A stretch of DNA of 11,213 nt, taken from positions 1 to 11,213 of the forward strand of contig CAJQOR010000417.1 in NCBI GenBank assembly GCA_905479965.1, given 5' to 3'. The notes under the pieces are model-generated. The model had not been told where the DNA came from. It saw only the letters and a program-made list of their open reading frames with translations, and made no database searches. The DNA comes from an uncultured Rhizobiaceae group bacterium. GTDB taxonomy: Bacteria > Pseudomonadota > Alphaproteobacteria > Rhizobiales > Rhizobiaceae. The translations under genes were made by a program, and so were the position numbers. Below, in pieces: positions 1,147 to 11,127 of the stretch; position 1 is the first letter of the stretch; the number at the start of each line of letters is the position of its first letter.

Positions 1147-2826
1147 TCACGCAAATAACCCATGCATAAACCACCTTGGTAAGAGGCCTTGTGATAAATG
1201 CGTTTCACGCTCATAAAGGCCCTGACGGAAAATCCAAAACCTGCGACCTGATTTGTCTTCAAGACGATAATAATCGCGCGTTTGGGCACTTTCACCATCA
1301 ATCCACCATTCAGCAGCAATGCGCTCTGGACCTTCTGCCCGTGCAACCTGATATTGGCTGCGACGCCATTTAAAACGAATAGGCGGACCTTCAGGCACTT
1401 CGGCAATTGCAGTCACAGGTTCAGGGTTTGAAAACAGCCTAATCGGGCGCTCATAGACATTATTTTTCATCATTGGGTCATCAAGCTCTTTATGTTCAAT
1501 TATGGGTACAAAAGAGGCAGCACGCTCGGGAATAAAACTTTGATGAAAAACAGGTTTTACAACGCTAGTTTTGCCCAAGCGTGCGGTTATCTGATCGGCT
1601 AATTGGTGCATGTTGGTTTGAACATTGTTGCCATTTACAAATGAATCTTGAACGTTCGATTTAATAACGGCCTGGATGACACAAAGCCTTATCGTTTCAA
1701 ATCCTGTCCCTGCATCAGACTCATCATAAATTGCCGCCAACTTTTGCGAAAAAAGTGCCCTAATACGTTTTGCATCACGAGAAGGGGCAGATAAGCCAAT
1801 CATGATTTTACGCACAACGCCATCCATACGAAATAACAACAGCATAAACTCTTGTCCCGCCTGACCACGCTTTTCTAAATCATGACGCAACGAATTTGAT
1901 AATTGCTCAATACAAGTTTCAATATCTTCTTGGCGGCCGATGGGTTCAGCTAACCGGCGTTCAACAGACAAATCAGACACAGGCAAATGCGGGGAAACGG
2001 GCTCTTCTTCCTGTCCCAAAGCTTGATCAAGTCGCTTTAAAAGCAAAGGGCCAAACCGGCGCATTAATGGTTTTCGAGGAGCCAATATAATATCTTTGAC
2101 TTTTTTTAACCCAACACGCTCAAGCGCTAACAGCATATCAAGCGGCAAACGCAAAGCAGCCATTGGAAACTGGCGAAATCGCGTTTCGAAATTATTCCAA
2201 TTCATAATTGCATTTACATGATCTGCGGCATGATCAGAAGGCGCACATTGCCGTGCAAGCCCCCATGCCAAACCAGGCGTGGGGGCAATCGAGCCCTGTG
2301 CATAAACACCCAACTTATCAAAACGCGAGACAATATCATTGAGCATTTCAGCTTCGCCGCCAAACAAATGCGCGCAGCCTGTGATATCCAAAAACAGCCC
2401 TTGCGGTTTGCCAAAAGGTGCATCAATGCCAATCAACGGCGTATATCGATCCGCCCAATCAGCCAGTGCATTTAAAAACGCCAAGTCAGCAGCATCATCG
2501 CTGGGGATAATATCAAGATCGGGGCATATCGCGCGCGCTTCGGTCACCCCTTGCCCTTCTCGCAATCTGTGAGATTGCGCGCTGATATCAAGTGATGCTA
2601 ACCGCATAGCACCCTTTTGTTTTGCCACACACACCATGGGTGCAAGGTTTTTTAACTCACGCTGTGTTTTATCCAAACGCCAAGATGCGCCCCATCTCAG
2701 ACGCTTGATCCGATCCGTTGCCAGATAAGGAAACGCCACCGCCAATATCCGGCGGTTGCTCTTGATAAAAATCGACTGCGTTGGAAGAGATGTCTTGATG
2801 TCTTGTGATAAAAGAGTGGCTGTCAT
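1147..2826 (-). CDS. imuB: ImuB, non-catalytic Y-family polymerase-like mutasome protein
   Basis: ImuB is the hub of the SOS mutasome: it bridges the beta clamp, ImuA and DnaE2 but does not itself synthesise DNA. The 559-residue product starts its conserved core at [18 protein letters not shown] (25-42). That segment replaces the Asp-containing palm motif of active DinB enzymes. Residues 134-158 ([25 protein letters not shown]) are a family signature. The C-terminal block [20 protein letters not shown] (517-536) is the conserved tail thought to contact RecA/ImuA. A canonical clamp-binding pentapeptide is not obvious; VQDSFVNG near 392-399 is the best candidate by position. The ATG at 2826 is preceded by a GGAATGGAAC purine-rich stretch, and no later ATG precedes the core. 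This start lies inside imuA, so the first 52 codons are shared with the 3' end of imuA in another frame. It is followed almost immediately by dnaE2. Confidence 0.93.
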
Positions 2827-3646
2827 TGTTCCATTCCAAAATAAACGATTGGGGCGCTGGGTTTTTGCTTTTCTCTAGCGTGATCTGAAATGCAGGATGT
2901 GAAAGACTGCTGGCAAACATCTTTTGCGATGGCAGTGTTCGTAATGCCGCCGGCGCTGATTGCACACCAAAACGAAGACGTGCAGCTGTAGCTTCTTCAT
3001 GCCCTGCTTGCCGCAACAAAAAAAACGGACGACCCGAACTTTGCGCTCTTAAATGCAAACGCCGTGTGCCTGCCATATCAAGATTTTGCGGATTTCCACG
3101 CACTTCTAAAATCGTCGCAGCAACTGATTTTTGTTTGGCCGCAAGTTCTGCCACCCAAAGCGCATCATGTAAGGAACGAGGCTGTATAAAAAGACATGTT
3201 GCAGGGTTAATGCCTAACGAAACTAACCCGGGCGGATATATATGCCCGCCCTCAAGGCGCGAAGTTGTTTCGCTGATAAAAAGAATCGGCAAGTCTTCGT
3301 TGTGCTTTTGCTTTAAAAAGCTTTGCATTTGATGCGCCAAGATCCAGGTAAAAGTGCTTGCAGCACCTGTTTGTCGTGTTTCTTGTGATCGAAACTCTGT
3401 GAGAGCAGCAAGGTTTATCCCACCAGAAAGCGCTGTGTCTAAAACTGGATTATCAAATCCAAGAACATTATTATTCTTATTGCCATATTGCGCAGAAAGC
3501 GTAACTAAGCCCTCCTCCTTGCACTCATGCTTTCCAGCTGATTTTGCAAAAGACGTGTCATCAAAACGAGCTGTAGATCGATTTTCAATTTTTGCTATCT
3601 TATGCCGAAGACAATTCAAGCCCTCGCGCGCTTGATGCTCTCGCAT
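2669..3646 (-). CDS. imuA: ImuA, RecA-like SOS mutasome protein
   Basis: ImuA is a RecA-fold accessory protein needed with ImuB and DnaE2 for damage-induced mutagenesis. The product is 325 residues from the ATG at 3646. Family landmarks are LGFDNPVLDTALSGGINLAAL (62-82), GGHIYPPGLVSLGI (133-146), DALWVAELAA (161-170), LDMAGTRRLHLRAQ (189-202), FFLLRQ (208-213) and [12 protein letters not shown] (268-279). A Walker A motif is absent, as is usual for ImuA. The start was chosen because AGGTGA sits 7 bases upstream and the protein then begins with the expected Arg/Glu-rich helix. A longer frame would begin at a GTG (3676) that lies within the LexA box. The product is longer than typical ImuA (about 250-270 residues) because of a roughly 45-residue tail that runs 158 bases into imuB. 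It is first gene of the SOS operon. Confidence 0.93.
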   Translation of the reverse strand: MREHQAREGLNCLRHKIAKIENRSTARFDDTSFAKSAGKHECKEEGLVTLSAQYGNKNNNVLGFDNPVLDTALSGGINLAALTEFRSQETRQTGAASTFTWILAHQMQSFLKQKHNEDLPILFISETTSRLEGGHIYPPGLVSLGINPATCLFIQPRSLHDALWVAELAAKQKSVAATILEVRGNPQNLDMAGTRRLHLRAQSSGRPFFLLRQAGHEEATAARLRFGVQSAPAALRTLPSQKMFASSLSHPAFQITLEKSKNPAPQSFILEWNNDSHSFITRHQDISSNAVDFYQEQPPDIGGGVSLSGNGSDQASEMGRILAFG

Positions 3647-3653
3647 TGCACGT

Positions 3654-3659
3654 TCACCT
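3654..3659 (-). promoter_or_regulatory. Ribosome binding site that fixes the imuA start
   Basis: On the minus strand AGGTGA lies 7 bases before the ATG at 3646. This supports the ATG over the upstream GTG at 3676, which has no such signal and overlaps the LexA box. Confidence 0.7.
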
Positions 3660-3670
3660 ATCTCATTTAT

Positions 3671-3685
3671 GTTCACTATTTGTTC
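3671..3685 (-). promoter_or_regulatory. LexA binding site (alphaproteobacterial SOS box) upstream of imuA
   Basis: The plus strand reads GTTC-ACTATTT-GTTC, an exact match to the GTTC-N7-GTTC direct-repeat LexA box of alphaproteobacteria. It ends 25 bases before the imuA ATG at 3646. A TATACT hexamer (3687-3692 on the minus strand) abuts it and could be the -10 element, so bound LexA would cover the transcription start. A TTGACT (3714-3719) lies upstream, but its 21-base spacing to TATACT is longer than ideal, so the -35 assignment is uncertain. This site should place imuA-imuB-dnaE2 under SOS control. Confidence 0.9.
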
Positions 3686-4027: not shown

Positions 4028-5407
4028 CTAAAACTCAGGGCGGGATTGATGCAAGAGGCTTCCAGGTTTTGCCCAAAAAGGTTTTAAATCATCAATCACA
4101 AGCGGCGATTTTAAACGCTTTAAAGGACCCAATTCAGTTTTTTCAATCACGGAACAAACATCATCAGTGGTTTCTGCCATAGAATTTTCGTCAAACTGAT
4201 CACGCTCTGTGATTTTTAAAAGTTCAGCCGTGCGCGCCAGTGATAAACGTGCAGAACACGCTTGGCCATGATCGCGCAATCGCGACAGCCCACGCAAAGC
4301 ACTCGCTGCGATGAGATAACCCGTTGCGTGATCGAGCGCTTGGACACTCATGGGGCAAGGCTGAAGGTTAGGTTGAGAATTGGGTTGATGATTTTGAGAA
4401 ATATCCATGCCTTTAGCGGCAATACCGCAGCTCATTTGTACCAAACTATCAAAACCGCGCCTATTGCGCCAAGGACCAGACCAACCATAAGCATTATGGG
4501 ATATATCAATCAAAGAAGGGTTGAGTTCTCGCAAGCGAGCATCATCAAGGCCAAGGTTTTCAAGCGCATTGGCGCGATAGCCATGGATGAAAACATCCGC
4601 TTGCGAAATAAGCGTCTTTAGATGCGCCAGATCTTCCGCGTCTTTTAAATCAAGCGTTGCACAGGATTTGCCAGGCGTCATATCTAAAATATGCTCACCC
4701 TCATCCCAGCCTTTTGGATCAATACGCAAAACACTTGCGCCATAATGGGCTAAAAATCTCGTGGCCACCGGGCCTGCTATAATGCGCGTGAGATCAAGAA
4801 CCTTTAATCCTTGTAGAGGTCTGGTTGCCACAGGCTGATGATTTAACTCCGCGCCTTTAAAATGCTGCCAAGCAATGAGCGGCTCTTTTGATAAGGCGAG
4901 CCCCTGTGGATGGGTTGCCCAATCCTTACTATTCATCATTTTTGCCGCAGCACCTCCACTTTTTACGATCATTTCTTCAAGAGCTTCACCTTTATAACGC
5001 GCAACTTTATCTGCCATCGCATTACGATCTAAATCACCCAAAACTTGTGTAACGACATTACGATGATGCGGCGCATTGGTGTGTAGGCGAAGAAAACCAT
5101 CTTGCGTTTGGTAATCACCTGCCAAATCATCCCAAGGTGACGATAATGCCCAACCTTGCGAGCGTAATGAGCTACCAAACCAAAGATAAGCCAAATGCTG
5201 ATCAACACTAATCTGACCCTCATATTGAGAACCAAATGCATAATGAGCCAGCGCCAATCCAGCCGCTGCGATTGAACTTGACGCCAATGAGGTCACCGCA
5301 AACACATCAGATGACGTAACATGATCGTTTTTCACGTGAATCATTAATGCCTGGTACCGATCGTCATCCATGTTGAGAGCATTTAAAATAGGTTTAAGCA
5401 GCGCCAT
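4028..5407 (-). CDS. Family III CoA-transferase (CaiB/BaiF type) with extra N-terminal domain
   Basis: Family III CoA-transferases move CoA between carboxylic acids through an aspartyl-CoA intermediate. The 459-residue product has the CaiB/BaiF core in its second half: PLQGLKVLDLTRIIAGPVATRFLAHYGA (197-224), GYRANALENLGL (276-287), LNPSLIDIS (295-303) and GFDSLVQMSCGIA (318-330). ALDHATGY follows; its Asp (about 359) aligns with the catalytic Asp169 of formyl-CoA transferase. Residues 1-195 form an additional domain (LAYLWFGSSL, LHTNAPHHR) seen in a group of long alphaproteobacterial homologues. Three QPN-like tetrapeptides directly precede the catalytic Asp region. The start is the ATG at 5407, with AAGGTG five bases upstream; a longer frame to 5470 begins with TTG and runs into the divergent promoter. 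The substrate is unknown. It is divergent from the HTH-citrate synthase and probably co-transcribed with the DUF2164 gene. Confidence 0.87.
   Translation of the reverse strand: MALLKPILNALNMDDDRYQALMIHVKNDHVTSSDVFAVTSLASSSIAAAGLALAHYAFGSQYEGQISVDQHLAYLWFGSSLRSQGWALSSPWDDLAGDYQTQDGFLRLHTNAPHHRNVVTQVLGDLDRNAMADKVARYKGEALEEMIVKSGGAAAKMMNSKDWATHPQGLALSKEPLIAWQHFKGAELNHQPVATRPLQGLKVLDLTRIIAGPVATRFLAHYGASVLRIDPKGWDEGEHILDMTPGKSCATLDLKDAEDLAHLKTLISQADVFIHGYRANALENLGLDDARLRELNPSLIDISHNAYGWSGPWRNRRGFDSLVQMSCGIAAKGMDISQNHQPNSQPNLQPCPMSVQALDHATGYLIAASALRGLSRLRDHGQACSARLSLARTAELLKITERDQFDENSMAETTDDVCSVIEKTELGPLKRLKSPLVIDDLKPFWAKPGSLLHQSRPEF
4355..4390 (-). repeat. Three degenerate 12-bp tandem units inside the CoA-transferase gene
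   Basis: On the minus strand three consecutive four-codon units encode HQPN, SQPN and LQPC. The DNA copies share a CAACC(C/T)AA-like core and have drifted at other positions. They form a Gln/Pro/Asn-rich loop just before the catalytic Asp segment and probably arose by local slippage. Confidence 0.6.
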
Positions 5408-5412
5408 TGGGA

Positions 5413-5418
5413 CACCTT
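5413..5418 (-). promoter_or_regulatory. Ribosome binding site that fixes the CoA-transferase start
   Basis: AAGGTG on the minus strand lies five bases before the ATG at 5407. The alternative in-frame TTG at 5470 has no comparable site. Confidence 0.6.
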
Positions 5419-5454
5419 TCATAATCTGAACTGTTGATGAAAGGATTTCGACAA

Positions 5455-5487
5455 CTTGACAGATCGTCAAGATTGATCAACATAATC
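5455..5487 (+). promoter_or_regulatory. Candidate promoter with inverted repeat for the HTH-citrate synthase gene
   Basis: A perfect inverted repeat CTTGAC-N5-GTCAAG (5455-5471) contains a consensus -35 hexamer TTGACA (5456-5461). A good -10 match, CATAAT (5481-5486), follows after a 19-base spacer, and an 8-base palindrome TTGATCAA (5473-5480) fills the rest of that spacer. A 19-base spacer is typical of promoters controlled by MerR-family proteins, and the downstream gene encodes a MerR-like HTH. The -10 lies only four bases before the ATG at 5491, which has no Shine-Dalgarno sequence, so transcription from here would give a nearly leaderless mRNA. The same 83-base region must also hold the promoter of the divergent CoA-transferase, which I could not assign. 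Confidence 0.45.
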
Positions 5488-5490
5488 AAT

Positions 5491-6615
5491 ATGAAAAAAG
5501 ATCAAGATGTCTTTACGCTAACTGCAAATGACGTGTGCGAAACGCTCAATATCTCACGCCAAACGCTCTATGCTTATGTCAGCCGCGGTAAAGTTCGAGC
5601 TTTAGCGCAACAAGGTGATGCGCGCAAAAGTCTTTATCACGCCCATGATGTTGAAACGCTGCTTGCAAGCAAAAAACGCGGGCGCTCAAGACGTGCGATT
5701 GCAAAATCCACCCAGAGCTGGGGCGAACCGGTTTTAAAATCAGAAATCAGCCATATTGATCAAGGAAAGCTCTATTACCGTGGCTATGACGCCATTGAGA
5801 TGTCCAAAGAAGCGACATATGAAAATGTTGCCAAGTTGCTGATCAACACGGATTTGGGTTTTGATCCGGATTTCAAGTTTGTGCCTATAGAAGGCAAAAA
5901 CCCATTTGTGAGAATGCTGGCTGCAGCAACGCATATCCTGACAACAAACTACCCCTTAGAAGAAGCTGATCGAAACGGCTTTATACTAAAATCACTGCTG
6001 GCAGCCATTTGTCAGACAAAAACACTTAAAAACGAACCATTTCATGTTCACCTGTCAAACTACTTCTCACAGGAGAGTGATTTTGCTGAAATTGCACGAC
6101 GTTGTCTGGTGCTATGTGCTGATCATGAGCTTAACCCATCTGCATATACCGCCCGTGTTGCAGCATCAGCGCATGCAAGCACCGAAGCCTGTATTTTAGC
6201 AGCTCTTGCAAGTTTTTCTGGAACCCGACATGGATCAATGACATCAATGACGCGCTGGTGGGTCGGACGCGCAGCCATGAAAAAAGATGATGATAGGATT
6301 AAGTTCATTAAGGGGATCAAACATCCACCAGGATTTGGCCATCCAATTTATCCTAAAATAGATCCTCGCGCTAAAGAGTTGCTCACATATTTTGACATGC
6401 CAGATGGCTGGGGTGAGATTATCACGCAAGTTGAAAAAGAATATGGCCTTTACCCCAATATCGATTTCGCACTAGCTGCAATGGAAAAAAGTCTAGGGTT
6501 ACGACCAAAAACAGGCCAAACACTGTTCGGTTTTGGGCGCGTAATTGGTTGGATTGCCCACACCGAAGAACAGCGTGAAAGCGGAAAACTCATTCGCCCC
6601 AGAGCATGGCGTTAA
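5491..6615 (+). CDS. Citrate synthase family enzyme with N-terminal MerR-like HTH domain
   Basis: The 374-residue product fuses a DNA-binding-type domain to a citrate synthase fold. Residues 9-58 (LTANDVCETLNISRQTLYAYVSRGKVRA, then ARKSLYHAHDVETLL) look like a MerR/excisionase-type winged helix. A basic linker (KKRGRSRR, 61-68) follows. The synthase part starts at ISHIDQGKLYYRGYDAIE (86-103). It keeps the residues that match the pig enzyme's active site: His212 in DHELN, His247 in SGTRHGSM, His284 in GFGHPIYPKIDPR, Asp325 in PNIDFAL, and Arg350 in FGFGRVIGW. It is therefore probably active with an acyl-CoA and a 2-oxo acid; whether the product is citrate, methylcitrate or another compound is not visible. 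The ATG was chosen because the HTH begins here; in-frame TTG/ATG codons at 5434/5437 overlap the promoter region. It converges with the TetR gene, with only 11 bases between stops. Confidence 0.88.
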   Translation: MKKDQDVFTLTANDVCETLNISRQTLYAYVSRGKVRALAQQGDARKSLYHAHDVETLLASKKRGRSRRAIAKSTQSWGEPVLKSEISHIDQGKLYYRGYDAIEMSKEATYENVAKLLINTDLGFDPDFKFVPIEGKNPFVRMLAAATHILTTNYPLEEADRNGFILKSLLAAICQTKTLKNEPFHVHLSNYFSQESDFAEIARRCLVLCADHELNPSAYTARVAASAHASTEACILAALASFSGTRHGSMTSMTRWWVGRAAMKKDDDRIKFIKGIKHPPGFGHPIYPKIDPRAKELLTYFDMPDGWGEIITQVEKEYGLYPNIDFALAAMEKSLGLRPKTGQTLFGFGRVIGWIAHTEEQRESGKLIRPRAWR

Positions 6616-6626
6616 ACGTACAAAAA

Positions 6627-7220
6627 TTACGCAAATTTCAATAAATTGTCCAAAGCCTTACGCGTTTTCGCCTGCAATTCTGCTTCACTAGGAACGGACA
6701 TCACACCAATAGCGCGCCGAATTTGCATATCTCCAATGAGTAAACTTAAATAAAGATTGCCTAATTCATCTATCTCCAGATCACCAAATGTCCCTTGTTC
6801 TTTAATCTGAGAAAGGACTTTTGAAATTAAGGGAAAAACACGTTCACGACCAACTTCAGACAAGGCTTTGCCAAGTTCACCGCTGGGATCAGCAGCAGCT
6901 GCGCGGTTTAAGGCAATTGCACGATCGCTTGATAAAAGCCGCAGTAACTTCAAACTAATCTCTTCAAGTATTTGCATAGGATCGCGTTGACGATCTAGAT
7001 CTTGGATCAAGCTTTCATAAACATCATCCGCATTGCGGATCACCATCGCCTGAAACAAACCTTTTTTATCGCCATACCATCGATAAAGCGTTTCATTGGA
7101 GGCCTTCGCACGCTTGGCAATCGCGAGCATTGAAATGTTATCATAGCCTTTTTCATCAATCAGCTCGTAGGCGGCCTCTTCGATTAATCGCCGCCGCTCT
7201 CTTTGTGCACTTTCACGCAT
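6627..7220 (-). CDS. TetR/AcrR family transcriptional regulator
   Basis: This 197-residue protein has the standard TetR N-terminal DNA-binding domain. Helix 1 is around residues 7-24 and the HTH around 30-49 (MLAIAKRAKASNETLYRWYGDKKGLF). The all-helical ligand-binding domain has an AefR-like character (NRAAAADPSGELGKALSEVGRERVF). The ligand cannot be predicted. The ATG at 7220 has GAGG five bases upstream; a GTG two codons earlier is less likely. It is transcribed divergently from the DUF1772 membrane protein gene, and two copies of a 16-bp near-palindrome lie between them. It therefore probably represses both itself and that neighbour. Confidence 0.9.
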   Translation of the reverse strand: MRESAQRERRRLIEEAAYELIDEKGYDNISMLAIAKRAKASNETLYRWYGDKKGLFQAMVIRNADDVYESLIQDLDRQRDPMQILEEISLKLLRLLSSDRAIALNRAAAADPSGELGKALSEVGRERVFPLISKVLSQIKEQGTFGDLEIDELGNLYLSLLIGDMQIRRAIGVMSVPSEAELQAKTRKALDNLLKFA

Positions 7221-7231
7221 GATCACCTCAC

Positions 7232-7260
7232 TTGACAGATATCGTACATTAAATTACGGA
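7232..7260 (+). promoter_or_regulatory. Possible promoter for the DUF1772 gene
   Basis: A consensus -35 hexamer TTGACA (7232-7237) is followed after 17 bases by TACGGA (7255-7260), a poor -10 match. It would overlap the first operator copy. The -35 is convincing; the -10 is not. Confidence 0.3.
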
Positions 7261-7268
7261 TATGTAAA
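7241..7268 (-). promoter_or_regulatory. Candidate promoter of the tetR gene overlapping an operator
   Basis: On the minus strand TTTACA (7263-7268) and TACGAT (7241-7246) are separated by 16 bases. The -10 hexamer overlaps the first operator copy and the start codon follows about 20 bases later, an arrangement expected for autorepression. Both hexamers are imperfect matches. Confidence 0.35.
7243..7258. promoter_or_regulatory. Probable TetR operator, copy 1
   Basis: CGTACATTAAATTACG is palindromic at 12 of 16 positions (outer arms CGTA...TACG). An identical copy lies 28 bases further on. Its position between a tetR gene and its divergent neighbour makes it a probable binding site of that regulator. 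Confidence 0.7.
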
Positions 7269-7270
7269 TA

Positions 7271-7286
7271 CGTACATTAAATTACG
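7271..7286. promoter_or_regulatory. Probable TetR operator, copy 2
   Basis: This is an exact second copy of CGTACATTAAATTACG in the same orientation, ending six bases before the GGAG ribosome binding site of the DUF1772 gene. The 28-base offset is between two and three helical turns. Confidence 0.7.
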
Positions 7287-7301
7287 CTTTTGGAGATTTC
7301 A

Positions 7302-7814
7302 ATGACTGTATGGCTCAAAACATCGGCTTTCATATCCACGCTTTTCGCAGCCGCAATATTTGGATTTTTCTATGCTTGGGTTAGCTCAACCATGTGGGGG
7401 CTTGATCAGATTGACAGCGAAGTTGCCATTCTAGCCATGCAAGGCATGAATGCATCGGTAAGAAACGCCATATTCGGATTGATCTTCTTTGGCACCGCGC
7501 CTGCGCTATTTTTAACCGCAGCAATTGCAGCCTCAATGAGGCTAAAAAAGCTCGCGGTGATATTCACGTGCTCAGGATTGATATATCTGTTCGGCGGCGC
7601 AGTTTTAACATTTATGATCAATGTACCGATGAATGAGCAACTCGCGCTGGTTCAATTACCGCTATCACCACAAGAGGCAAAAACAATTTGGCAAAGCTAT
7701 TCTAAAGAATGGCAATTTTGGAACCAGACGCGCACCGTCTTTTCAGGCCTAGCATTTCTTGCAGCCGCCTGTGGGATTTATACCTTGGGGAAAACCACGA
7801 TCAATAAAGCTTAA
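7302..7814 (+). CDS. DUF1772 family integral membrane protein
   Basis: The 170-residue protein has four predicted membrane segments, at about 8-28, 56-76, 84-106 and 146-163. Between segments 3 and 4 it carries the family hallmark NVPMN (107-111) followed by W...Y...W..WN..R (130-144). DUF1772 includes anthrone-oxygenase-like proteins, but most bacterial members have no known role. The ATG at 7302 has GGAG six bases upstream; an in-frame TTG at 7290 overlaps that site and is rejected. Divergence from a tetR gene with duplicated operators suggests it is the regulated target, perhaps in response to a small lipophilic compound; this is inference. The gene converges with the alkyltransferase-like gene, with nine bases between stops. 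Confidence 0.83.
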   Translation: MTVWLKTSAFISTLFAAAIFGFFYAWVSSTMWGLDQIDSEVAILAMQGMNASVRNAIFGLIFFGTAPALFLTAAIAASMRLKKLAVIFTCSGLIYLFGGAVLTFMINVPMNEQLALVQLPLSPQEAKTIWQSYSKEWQFWNQTRTVFSGLAFLAAACGIYTLGKTTINKA

Positions 7815-9440: not shown

Positions 9441-10373
9441 CTAATTCGTGATCAATTTCGATTTTGCAACAAGCTTTTCAGCCATTTCCAAATGAAGCCG
9501 TTCAATCATTTTACCGTTGAGTTGAATGACACCTGCATCTTCATTTTTCGCCTCTGCAAAAGCATCGATAATGTCTTGCGCTTCGCTCAAGGCATTTTCT
9601 TCAATCCCAAACGCCTTATTGGCAAACTCGATCTGGCTCGGATGGATAAGTGATTTACCATCAAATCCCATGGAACGACCGTCTATGCTTTCACGCTCAA
9701 ACCCTGAAGTATCTTTAAAATCATTATAAACACCATCGATCACATCAAGACCATAAGCGCGTGCAGATAGGACAATCTGACTAAGCCAATTGGACAAATA
9801 AGGGCGCCCTTCCTGAGGTTTAACACCTGTTTCCTTCACTAAATCATTCGTTCCGGCAACAAAACAATCTAGTCTTGTGCCCGGAGTTCGGGCAAACCTT
9901 GCAATCGAAGCGACATTTAAAATACCGCGCGGAGTTTCAATCATTGCCCATAAGCGCAAATCTGGAGAAGTGTCCATTTCAACCAATGCATCATTAACCT
10001 CAATGATATCATCAGCCTCTGAAACCTTCGGCAATAAGATCGCTGACGGCATGATCGCACGCGCAGCTATCAAATCTTCACTTCCCCATGCGCTCGAAAG
10101 TGCGTTTATCCGGATCAAGATCTCTTTTTCGCTGCGTTGAATACCATTTGGGAAATTGTCGTTCAAAAATGCGCGTAAAGTCTCGCGCGCTGCAGCTTTC
10201 TGGATAGGCAAGATCGCATCTTCTAGATCATAAATGACCACATCGGACGATAAAGAAAGTGATTTCTCTAGCGCACGTTCGTTATTAGCTGGCACATAAA
10301 GAACAGACCTTCGCGGTCGAACGGGGCGTACAGCTTCTGGGATCTTAATATTCGACAGGCTTTTATCACTCAT
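9441..10373 (-). CDS. HpcH/HpaI aldolase/citrate lyase-type CoA ester lyase (CitE-like)
   Basis: The 310-residue product belongs to the CitE/malyl-CoA lyase group of TIM-barrel enzymes, which cleave or form 3-hydroxyacyl-CoA esters using Mg2+. The motifs appear in order: RRSVLYVPANNERALEKS (21-38), VVIYDLEDAI (45-54), IRIN (87-90), LLPK (113-116), MIETPRG (144-150) with probable metal ligand Glu146, and AGTNDL (173-178) with probable metal ligand Asp177. GFDGKSLIHPSQI (236-248) follows near the end. All key residues are present, so it should be active. Whether it is a malyl-CoA, methylmalyl-CoA or citramalyl-CoA lyase, or a thioesterase like malyl-CoA thioesterase, cannot be told. No strong ribosome binding site is seen; the ATG is supported by the family-type N-terminus. 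It is divergent from leuD. Confidence 0.88.
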   Translation of the reverse strand: MSDKSLSNIKIPEAVRPVRPRRSVLYVPANNERALEKSLSLSSDVVIYDLEDAILPIQKAAARETLRAFLNDNFPNGIQRSEKEILIRINALSSAWGSEDLIAARAIMPSAILLPKVSEADDIIEVNDALVEMDTSPDLRLWAMIETPRGILNVASIARFARTPGTRLDCFVAGTNDLVKETGVKPQEGRPYLSNWLSQIVLSARAYGLDVIDGVYNDFKDTSGFERESIDGRSMGFDGKSLIHPSQIEFANKAFGIEENALSEAQDIIDAFAEAKNEDAGVIQLNGKMIERLHLEMAEKLVAKSKLITN

Positions 10374-10521
10374 ATCTATCTACTTTTAAAATTTTTATGC
10401 ACCAAATAGTCGGTTCTTGACGAGATCAAAACACTGAAAATGGCTATTTCTTTCAAAAAACACTTCTTTTTCTCACATATGTTTGGTAAACGCAGCTACA
10501 AACTTCATATGGATGAAAATA
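10374..10521. promoter_or_regulatory. AT-rich divergent intergenic region between CoA ester lyase gene and leuD
   Basis: These 148 bases must carry the promoters of both flanking genes. A TTGACG (10417-10422, plus strand) is a reasonable -35 for leuD, but no convincing -10 lies 16-18 bases downstream; GGCTAT at 10442-10447 follows after 19. I see no leader peptide with leucine codons, attenuator hairpin or clear operator. Confidence 0.3.
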
Positions 10522-11127
10522 ATGGAAAAATTCACAACGCTCACTGGTGTTGCAGCACCCTATCCTGTCATCAACATTGACACGGACATGATCATTCCAA
10601 AAGATTACCTCAAAACAATTAAACGCACAGGTTTATCTGTTGGTCTTTTTGCCGAATCTCGTTTTAACGAAGATGGCTCTGAAAAACCTGATTTTGTGCT
10701 TAACAAACCTGCTTATCGCAATGCAGAAATTTTAGTTGCTGGCGATAACTTTGGTTGCGGTTCTTCTCGTGAACATGCGCCATGGGCTTTGCTTGATTTT
10801 GGTATTCGCTGCGTGATCTCAACTAGCTTTGCGGACATTTTCTACAATAACTGTTTCAAAAATGGCATTTTGCCAATTGTTGTCACAGCTGAAGAACTTG
10901 AAAAACTTCTCGATGATGCAGAACGCGGTTCAAATTCAACACTCACAGTTGATCTTGAAAGTCAGCAAATCAAAGGCCCAGATGGCGGTACGATTACATT
11001 TGATATCGATCCGTTCCGCAAACATTGTTTGCTGAATGGTCTTGATGATATTGCACTCACTCTAGAAAAAGCAGCAGCCATCGACACATACGAAGGCAAA
11101 TTAGGTGATACACGTCCCTGGGCATAA
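10522..11127 (+). CDS. leuD: 3-isopropylmalate dehydratase small subunit LeuD
   Basis: LeuD pairs with LeuC to form the isopropylmalate isomerase of leucine biosynthesis, which interconverts 2- and 3-isopropylmalate; the Fe-S cluster sits in LeuC. The 201-residue product has the aconitase swivel-domain motifs [14 protein letters not shown] (18-31), [17 protein letters not shown] (74-90) and [18 protein letters not shown] (102-119). These are intact and at the usual rhizobial length. The start is set at ATG 10522 because homologues begin MEKF; an ATG at 10513 and a TTG at 10483 are in frame but extend beyond the family. The ribosome binding site is weak (GGATG seven bases upstream). Its last codons (Trp-Ala-stop) form the first unit of a tandem repeat. 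leuC is not in the window. Confidence 0.96.

Follow-up and report, generated by a model that had tools for sequence, protein, structure and literature searches.

A helix-turn-helix–citrate synthase fusion and its promoter region

Contig CAJQOR010000417.1 of an uncultured Rhizobiaceae bacterium (assembly GCA_905479965.1) carries a gene for a citrate synthase (CS) fused to a helix-turn-helix (HTH) domain, hereafter HTH-CS, which is the subject of this analysis; the window is the whole stretch analyzed, 11,213 nucleotides long. The HTH-CS gene lies on the plus strand at 5491–6615, with its ATG at 5491, and encodes 374 amino acids (aa). Divergent from it, on the minus strand at 4028–5422, is the gene of a CaiB/BaiF-like family III CoA-transferase of 464 aa (start at 5422 or 5407), the presumed co-regulated partner. 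Reaching into the HTH-CS gene from upstream is a conserved operator, GTCAAGATTGATCAACATAATCAATAT (5466–5492, plus strand), which has half-sites at 5466–5470, 5473–5477, and 5485–5489 and whose final two bases coincide with the first two, A and T, of the start codon.

The protein begins with a winged HTH domain (residues 10–61; 5518–5673, plus strand), identified by its match to the HTH_17 profile (31.7 bits, cut-off 27), by structure models, and by conservation; the recognition helix region, TLYAYVSRG, corresponds to residues 25–33. A basic linker follows (residues 64–80; 5680–5730, plus strand), in which the predicted local distance difference test (pLDDT) score of the model is below 50, and residues 73–374 (5707–6612, plus strand) form a citrate synthase fold that matches Citrate_synt (PF00285) with 170.3 bits against a cut-off of 27. 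Seven active-site residues are kept (H212, H247, H284, R293, D325, R350, and R371), and each of these positions is conserved in 103–109 of 109 HTH-CS rows, which indicates that the substrate pocket is under selection. H247, H284, and D325 correspond to the catalytic His/His/Asp set, and the conserved positions also include the oxaloacetate-binding residues. The original prediction of an enzyme that retains its catalytic triad and carries a DNA-binding-type domain with a basic linker is thus borne out. Profile, fold, and residues place HTH-CS in the family of proteins with the citrate synthase fold; formation of citrate from oxaloacetate and acetyl-CoA is at most a putative activity. Much of the profile up to position 150 is poorly matched, and HTH-CS scores far below the cut-off of every NCBIfam citrate synthase equivalog listed (best score 118 bits, against 421.3 for TIGR01800). 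Relatives carry the NCBI-style name "citrate synthase family protein", and no relative was detected in the viral contigs searched.

Promoter-like elements accompany the operator. A −35-like TTGACA (5456–5461, plus strand) is separated by 19 bases from a −10-like CATAAT (5481–5486, plus strand), which lies inside the operator; a promoter scanner limited to spacers of 16–18 did not list this pair. CATAAT ends 4 bases before the ATG, and transcripts started from this promoter would therefore have no leader, or hardly any. The TTGAC at 5456–5460 (plus strand) is an additional upstream half-site, kept in close relatives at N5, and the left arm of an inverted repeat, CTTGAC-N5-GTCAAG (5455–5471). 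It had been proposed that a perfect repeat of this form covers the −35 and that 19 bases separate the latter from CATAAT; both are exactly present, and the repeat is the sole match in the window at up to two mismatches. However, at least one match at that tolerance (a figure that does not apply to exact matches) occurs in 56 of 200 shuffles, so the repeat is by itself weak evidence. This frequency is what could be said for the view that the gene encodes a citrate synthase of the ordinary kind, as annotated, and that the palindrome arose by chance. Against this stands the conservation described below, which far exceeds that of shuffled sequence and makes the view extremely improbable.

Conservation of the operator and of the divergent genes

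Genome contigs were scanned for HTH-CS, which yielded at least 80 loci from Alpha-, Beta-, and a few Gammaproteobacteria. These were found partly through the peptide pattern TLYAYVSRG, and conservation of that stretch of the helix is therefore selected; the operator sequence played no part in any protein search. A set of 297 Rhizobiaceae genomes (the family of G002) contributed 61 matching genomes at E ≤ 1e-30, some of them matching the CS part only, from which 30 loci were added. Four of these 30 loci (L081–L084) carry close orthologues of the window's HTH-CS, with 93, 90, 90, and 67% identity. Together with the window and a second HTH-CS locus of Paraburkholderia (L112), and after removal of duplicates, the final set comprised 109 loci.

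The upstream regions of the scanned loci have one element in common. With a passing score of at least 17 out of 25 against the consensus, the operator is found in 105 of the 108 loci that have enough upstream sequence. Shuffling of the upstream regions gave 6 passes in 2160, and elsewhere in the same loci 1 stretch in 1637 passed; this larger conserved operator is clearly beyond chance. The 27-bp consensus of the 105 rows is RTCAAtcTTGATyaatatrATCAAyrT, in which A4, A5, TTGA (8–11), TC (21–22), and A24 are invariant. Its core, RTCAA-N2-TTGAT-N7-ATCAA, consists of three TTGAT-type half-sites, which in the window enclose the −10-like hexamer. In 30 of the 105 loci an ATG follows immediately on the operator, and in 27 of these it is in frame with the gene, which suggests leaderless transcripts at those loci. 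The three loci that lack the operator (L025, L027, and L037) form one clade on a quick tree, with a support of 100 in the Shimodaira–Hasegawa-like approximate likelihood ratio test (SH-aLRT). They also lack the partner genes described below, and their genomes contain no operator site at up to one mismatch.

These counts alter the reading of the promoter. The inverted repeat had been expected upstream of orthologues: its right arm is indeed conserved, inside the 27-bp operator, which is the whole of their overlap, but the left arm, an upstream TTGAY half-site five bases before the operator, occurs in only 10 of 105 loci, the window included. CTTGAC-N5-GTCAAG was accordingly rejected as the core operator, its left arm being lineage-specific. 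A MerR-type spacing of 19 bases was rejected as a rule of the family as well: TTGACA-N19-CATAAT is retained by the four close orthologues (L081–L084), and TTGAY stands at that distance in the same 10 loci. Palindrome and spacing, which had been read as the regulatory signal, are features of a lineage, and the element that is kept is RTCAA-N2-TTGAT-N7-ATCAA. For the same reason it is doubtful that HTH-CS acts as a MerR-type activator which, once bound, untwists a promoter with a 19-base spacer, as the original prediction implied. The window itself has such a spacer; across the family, the upstream half-site or −35 is mostly missing at that spacing, and the conserved dyad, instead of lying within the spacer, covers the −10 and in 30 of 105 loci directly adjoins an ATG.

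The divergent genes were classified by tblastn across the 109 loci. A second citrate synthase without HTH (CS2) is found in 66, a CaiB-like CoA-transferase in 28 (including the window), a major facilitator superfamily (MFS) transporter in 6, and other genes in 6, one of which encodes DUF2332 (L044); in 3 cases the contig edge intervenes. When the three main types of partner are mapped on a quick tree of all 109 proteins, 5 changes are required, as compared with a shuffled mean of 30.3, and the operator persists across these changes of the divergent gene. CaiB-type genomes near the window (G001–G003, G039, G142, G212, and G270) have GltA and HTH-CS and no CS2, and some of them also have a short citryl-CoA-lyase-like protein. 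In CaiB-type betaproteobacteria and a pseudomonad (G015, G018, G024, and G027), a further, better-scoring citrate synthase (403–425 bits) is encoded elsewhere. As for the genomes with operator-less loci, which have no CS2, CaiB-like, or MFS partner at HTH-CS, CS2 is absent from two (G324 and G326), and in the third (G325), fragments of citrate synthase are spread over different contigs.

Several observations concern the partners themselves. At the position of HTH-CS D325, 55 of the 56 CS2 rows with a readable open reading frame have Glu, and so, in the alignment, does B. subtilis citrate synthase 1. One Paraburkholderia genome has two HTH-CS copies: one of the MFS type and a second, at L112 (1711–2961 and 3019–4533), which is paired with a CaiB-like protein and has an exact operator of its own. 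The CaiB-like partner looks circularly permuted: the C-terminal half of the window protein matches PF02515 positions 1–199, and in 8 of 10 relatives the N-terminal half matches about 226–323 (E from 3.7e-06 to 0.19, one over the cut-off), the partners concerned being those of the window, L001, L002, L004, L009, L018, L063, L084, and L085. The N-terminal part of the window protein gave no match.

Co-occurrence of site and gene, and a probable second target in trans

The 199 genomes of the Caulobacteraceae (the family of G026) allow site and gene to be followed separately. The exact operator site occurs in 85 of them and a reversed control pattern in none, and 157 have an HTH-CS match (query the Caulobacter vibrioides OR37 protein, E ≤ 1e-45; the coordinates of the weakest matches were not listed). 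All 85 genomes with an exact site encode HTH-CS, whereas none of the 42 genomes without a match has the site. Of the 95 exact sites, 79 belong to HTH-CS and 15 precede DUF2332 genes; 1 (G384:C226), near a contig start, is unassigned. Among the 41 site loci that were fetched, 30 chosen by the tool and 11 picked by hand as second sites or as unlike the consensus, 27 are HTH-CS promoters and 14 lie directly before a DUF2332 gene. In five genomes whose sole exact G-start site is at DUF2332, an A-start operator is present at the HTH-CS/CS2 promoter.

DUF2332 (PF10094) is present in 67 of the 199 genomes, and it is the divergent partner of HTH-CS in Roseomonas. Its loci with sites include L111 (3017–4069), L115 (2334–3401), L117, L119, L120, L122, and L147–L156. 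DUF2332 promoters were scored with a matrix built solely from HTH-CS promoters, genomes with two DUF2332 genes (G431 and G498) being counted once; 51 of the 54 DUF2332 genomes with an HTH-CS match were scored, and G346, G392, and G466, with broken or weak DUF2332 matches, were left out. Under a lenient limit, set above the largest of 540 Markov-resampled stretches, sites are found in 33 of 51 genomes with HTH-CS (15 exact and 18 more) and in 0 of 13 without it (Fisher 1.6e-5, among related genomes). This limit admits poor scores (G453, −0.5; G369, 1.8; G325, 3.0) and takes in three genomes in which HTH-CS has no adjoining CS2 (G325, G326, and G385); in G326, a match with two mismatches (C20) stands before DUF2332. 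Under a strict limit, which admits exact sites and scores from 17.9 (the lowest in the training set) upward, the count is 22 of 51 against 0 of 13 (Fisher 0.0026, with the same relatedness). The strongest indication that HTH-CS reads the site is this restriction: the site accompanies another gene, far from the first, solely in genomes that have HTH-CS.

That HTH-CS itself binds DNA is something we infer, and this leaves room for the idea that another regulator binds the operator while the HTH of the fusion has a different role, for example in subunit contact with the partner citrate synthase; HTH-CS genes that have neither partner nor full site still have their HTH. The 85 of 85 and 0 of 42 genomes, the confinement of the trans sites at DUF2332 to genomes with HTH-CS, and the differences between lineages in the gene across the site make this idea very improbable, and HTH-CS is, with high probability, the regulator of this operator.

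The set of targets appears narrow. A search of 27 genomes, picked because they hold HTH-CS loci, returned 25 exact sites in 23 genomes; 23 were HTH-CS promoter sites already in the locus set, and the other two belong to the second HTH-CS (L112) and to a DUF2332 promoter (L111). A broad regulon was ruled out by this distribution, with 24 sites at HTH-CS promoters and 1 at DUF2332. Of the one-mismatch sites, those of G005, G007, and G008, as well as one of G020, also belong to HTH-CS promoters; five further one-mismatch loci that were fetched (L184–L188) have no HTH-CS, CS2, CaiB, MFS, or DUF2332 gene. In the Rhizobiaceae set, the exact site occurs in 64 of 297 genomes; among 35 loci with the exact site that were fetched, 31 belong to HTH-CS, and the other four (L211, L213, L215, and L216) have none of the same five genes.

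Elsewhere in the window, two minus-strand genes at 1147–3676 resemble an error-prone polymerase cassette of what we take to be the ImuB/ImuA type, the first with an IMS match and the second with no Pfam match. At 6627–7814, a TetR-type regulator is divergent from an anthrone-oxygenase-like protein (PF08592), the two being paired by position only. A CitE-like C–C lyase (9441–10373, minus strand) is divergent from leuD (10483–11127, plus strand), near the HTH-CS gene and not adjoining it; the four best other operator-like matches in the window do not fall in this region.

Proposed mechanism and comparison with known systems

The sequence itself shows the fusion, the operator, its conservation, and its association with both the HTH-CS gene and the partners in cis and in trans. 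They suggest, with a probability that we put at about 0.8, that HTH-CS is a one-component transcription factor derived from citrate synthase which controls its own gene and its partner genes. The original prediction that the fusion controls its own and the divergent gene is strongly supported, on comparative grounds, by the conserved operator, the co-occurrence with HTH-CS, and the target in trans, and not in its details of palindrome and 19-base spacing. A dimer or higher oligomer of HTH-CS would bind the three-half-site operator through its winged HTH, within the shared divergent promoter region, where the bound site would overlap the −10 and the start codon of the HTH-CS gene. HTH-CS would thereby regulate its own gene and its partner, here the CaiB-like CoA-transferase and elsewhere the second citrate synthase, the MFS transporter, or DUF2332. 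The position of the operator over the −10 and the start codon makes repression seem somewhat more probable than activation. The intact active site allows ligand sensing, and we consider it fairly probable that HTH-CS senses ligands of citrate synthase: the kept site would most likely detect oxaloacetate and/or acyl-CoA, or the condensation product, and ligand-driven domain closure of the CS part would change DNA binding. In the simplest model, HTH-CS would be gated by its ligand, would probably repress, and would adjust an alternative citrate synthase or a CoA-transferase to the supply of oxaloacetate or acyl-CoA.

Data from Caulobacter crescentus are relevant here. This bacterium has three citrate synthase genes, including citB (CCNA_03757) and citC (CCNA_03758), which have consecutive locus tags; an E. 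coli gltA mutant was complemented by CitB and not by CitC, and CitB has the higher identity to B. subtilis CitA (37 versus 32%) (PMC7083601). In the available text of that study, CitC is described solely as a paralogue that fails to complement gltA, and the term "helix-turn-helix" is absent from its main text (PMC7083601). In C. vibrioides OR37 (G010) there are exactly three genes with PF00285, and the HTH-CS/CS2 pair accounts for two of them; among PDB entries, the OR37 CS2 matches B. subtilis citrate synthase 1 (2c6x) best, consistent with the higher identity reported for CitB. From the gene number, the consecutive tags, the OR37 pair, and the 2c6x match, CitC and CitB are very probably the orthologues of HTH-CS and CS2, respectively. 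The failure of CitC to replace gltA fits a ligand-sensing regulator. It also bears on the alternative that HTH-CS is a working (methyl)citrate synthase that additionally binds its own promoter, as PutA does, so that catalysis and regulation coexist; this alternative is unlikely in view of that failure, as far as it is reported (PMC7083601), and of the poor match to much of the first 150 profile positions. In the accessible part of another study, the CCNA_03757 promoter is named merely as a negative control for IscR binding (PMC11475020). HTH–citrate synthase fusions are already visible, annotated as citrate synthase family, and no description of their operator, partners, or regulatory role was found in full-text searches of open-access literature (which lacks most subscription papers), in agreement with the original statement that such fusions are known and their regulation is not described; PMC7083601 was the one paper there with a bearing on the gene, and DUF2332 was not mentioned in the literature searched.

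Several points weigh against regulation by HTH-CS as proposed. The loci are mutually related, and the counts are thus not independent. The kept active site would also fit a plain enzyme, and the negative complementation test may have other causes. The absence of HTH-CS depends on the E-value limit, since G234 and G058, which fall below the limit used for the Rhizobiaceae, do carry HTH-CS. Finally, 13 further Caulobacteraceae HTH-CS genes, picked by hand, have no CS2 next door and no full operator, so there the protein would have another job or another site. In these, TLYAYVSRG is intact in 7 and the recognition helix altered in 6, as if the helix drifts after loss of the full operator. Six of the 13 (L164–L166, L168, L170, and L171) have retained no more of the operator than its left part, RTCAATCTTGAT or a close variant, as if the third half-site had served the partner gene.

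The findings point to a central metabolic enzyme turned into a gene switch, whose operator is kept across many Alpha- and Betaproteobacteria, and so well that target genes can be read from genomes. We lean slightly toward the wider view of a widespread, undescribed family of transcription factors with a citrate synthase fold, which would gauge oxaloacetate and acyl-CoA through an intact, non-productive active site and switch, through the operator, CS2, a permuted CoA-transferase, a transporter, or DUF2332. Citrate synthase is the gate of the tricarboxylic acid (TCA) cycle, and such a protein would report directly, at the level of genes, on the point at which the cycle is entered; mixed dimers of HTH-CS with the citrate synthase that it controls would also be possible. 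The operator ties the uncharacterized DUF2332 and the CoA-transferase to citrate metabolism, and regulation by HTH-CS may explain why, as reported, Caulobacter CitC fails to stand in for a citrate synthase in E. coli. It is also a warning that such genes should not be counted as citrate synthases in metabolic models.

Among known systems, the MerR superfamily (SoxR, CarH, GlnR, and BldC), of which HTH-CS is a possible member, is the first to be compared. MerR proteins act on promoters with a 19–20 bp spacer that contains the dyad, and a long antiparallel dimerization helix follows their HTH. In HTH-CS, by contrast, the effector part is a whole citrate synthase fold, and the operator consists of three TTGAT-type half-sites over the −10; a 19-base spacer is found in the window and L081–L084. 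The long dimerization helix is missing from the full-length monomer model, in which a helix at 51–62 is followed by the low-confidence linker, and a model of the HTH alone extends this helix over 51–70. Matches to the 2-methylcitrate synthase PrpC are limited to the CS part and include no HTH. PutA, BirA, and NadR are trigger enzymes or enzyme-derived regulators, and to our knowledge no enzyme-derived regulator is a citrate synthase. HTH-CS resembles them in that a DNA-binding domain is fused to a metabolic enzyme that would be expected to answer to its substrates, and differs from them in its citrate synthase part and in that catalysis may have been lost. With its cognate operator in its own and in target promoters, as judged from sequence, HTH-CS appears to work like a trigger enzyme or an enzyme-derived one-component regulator.
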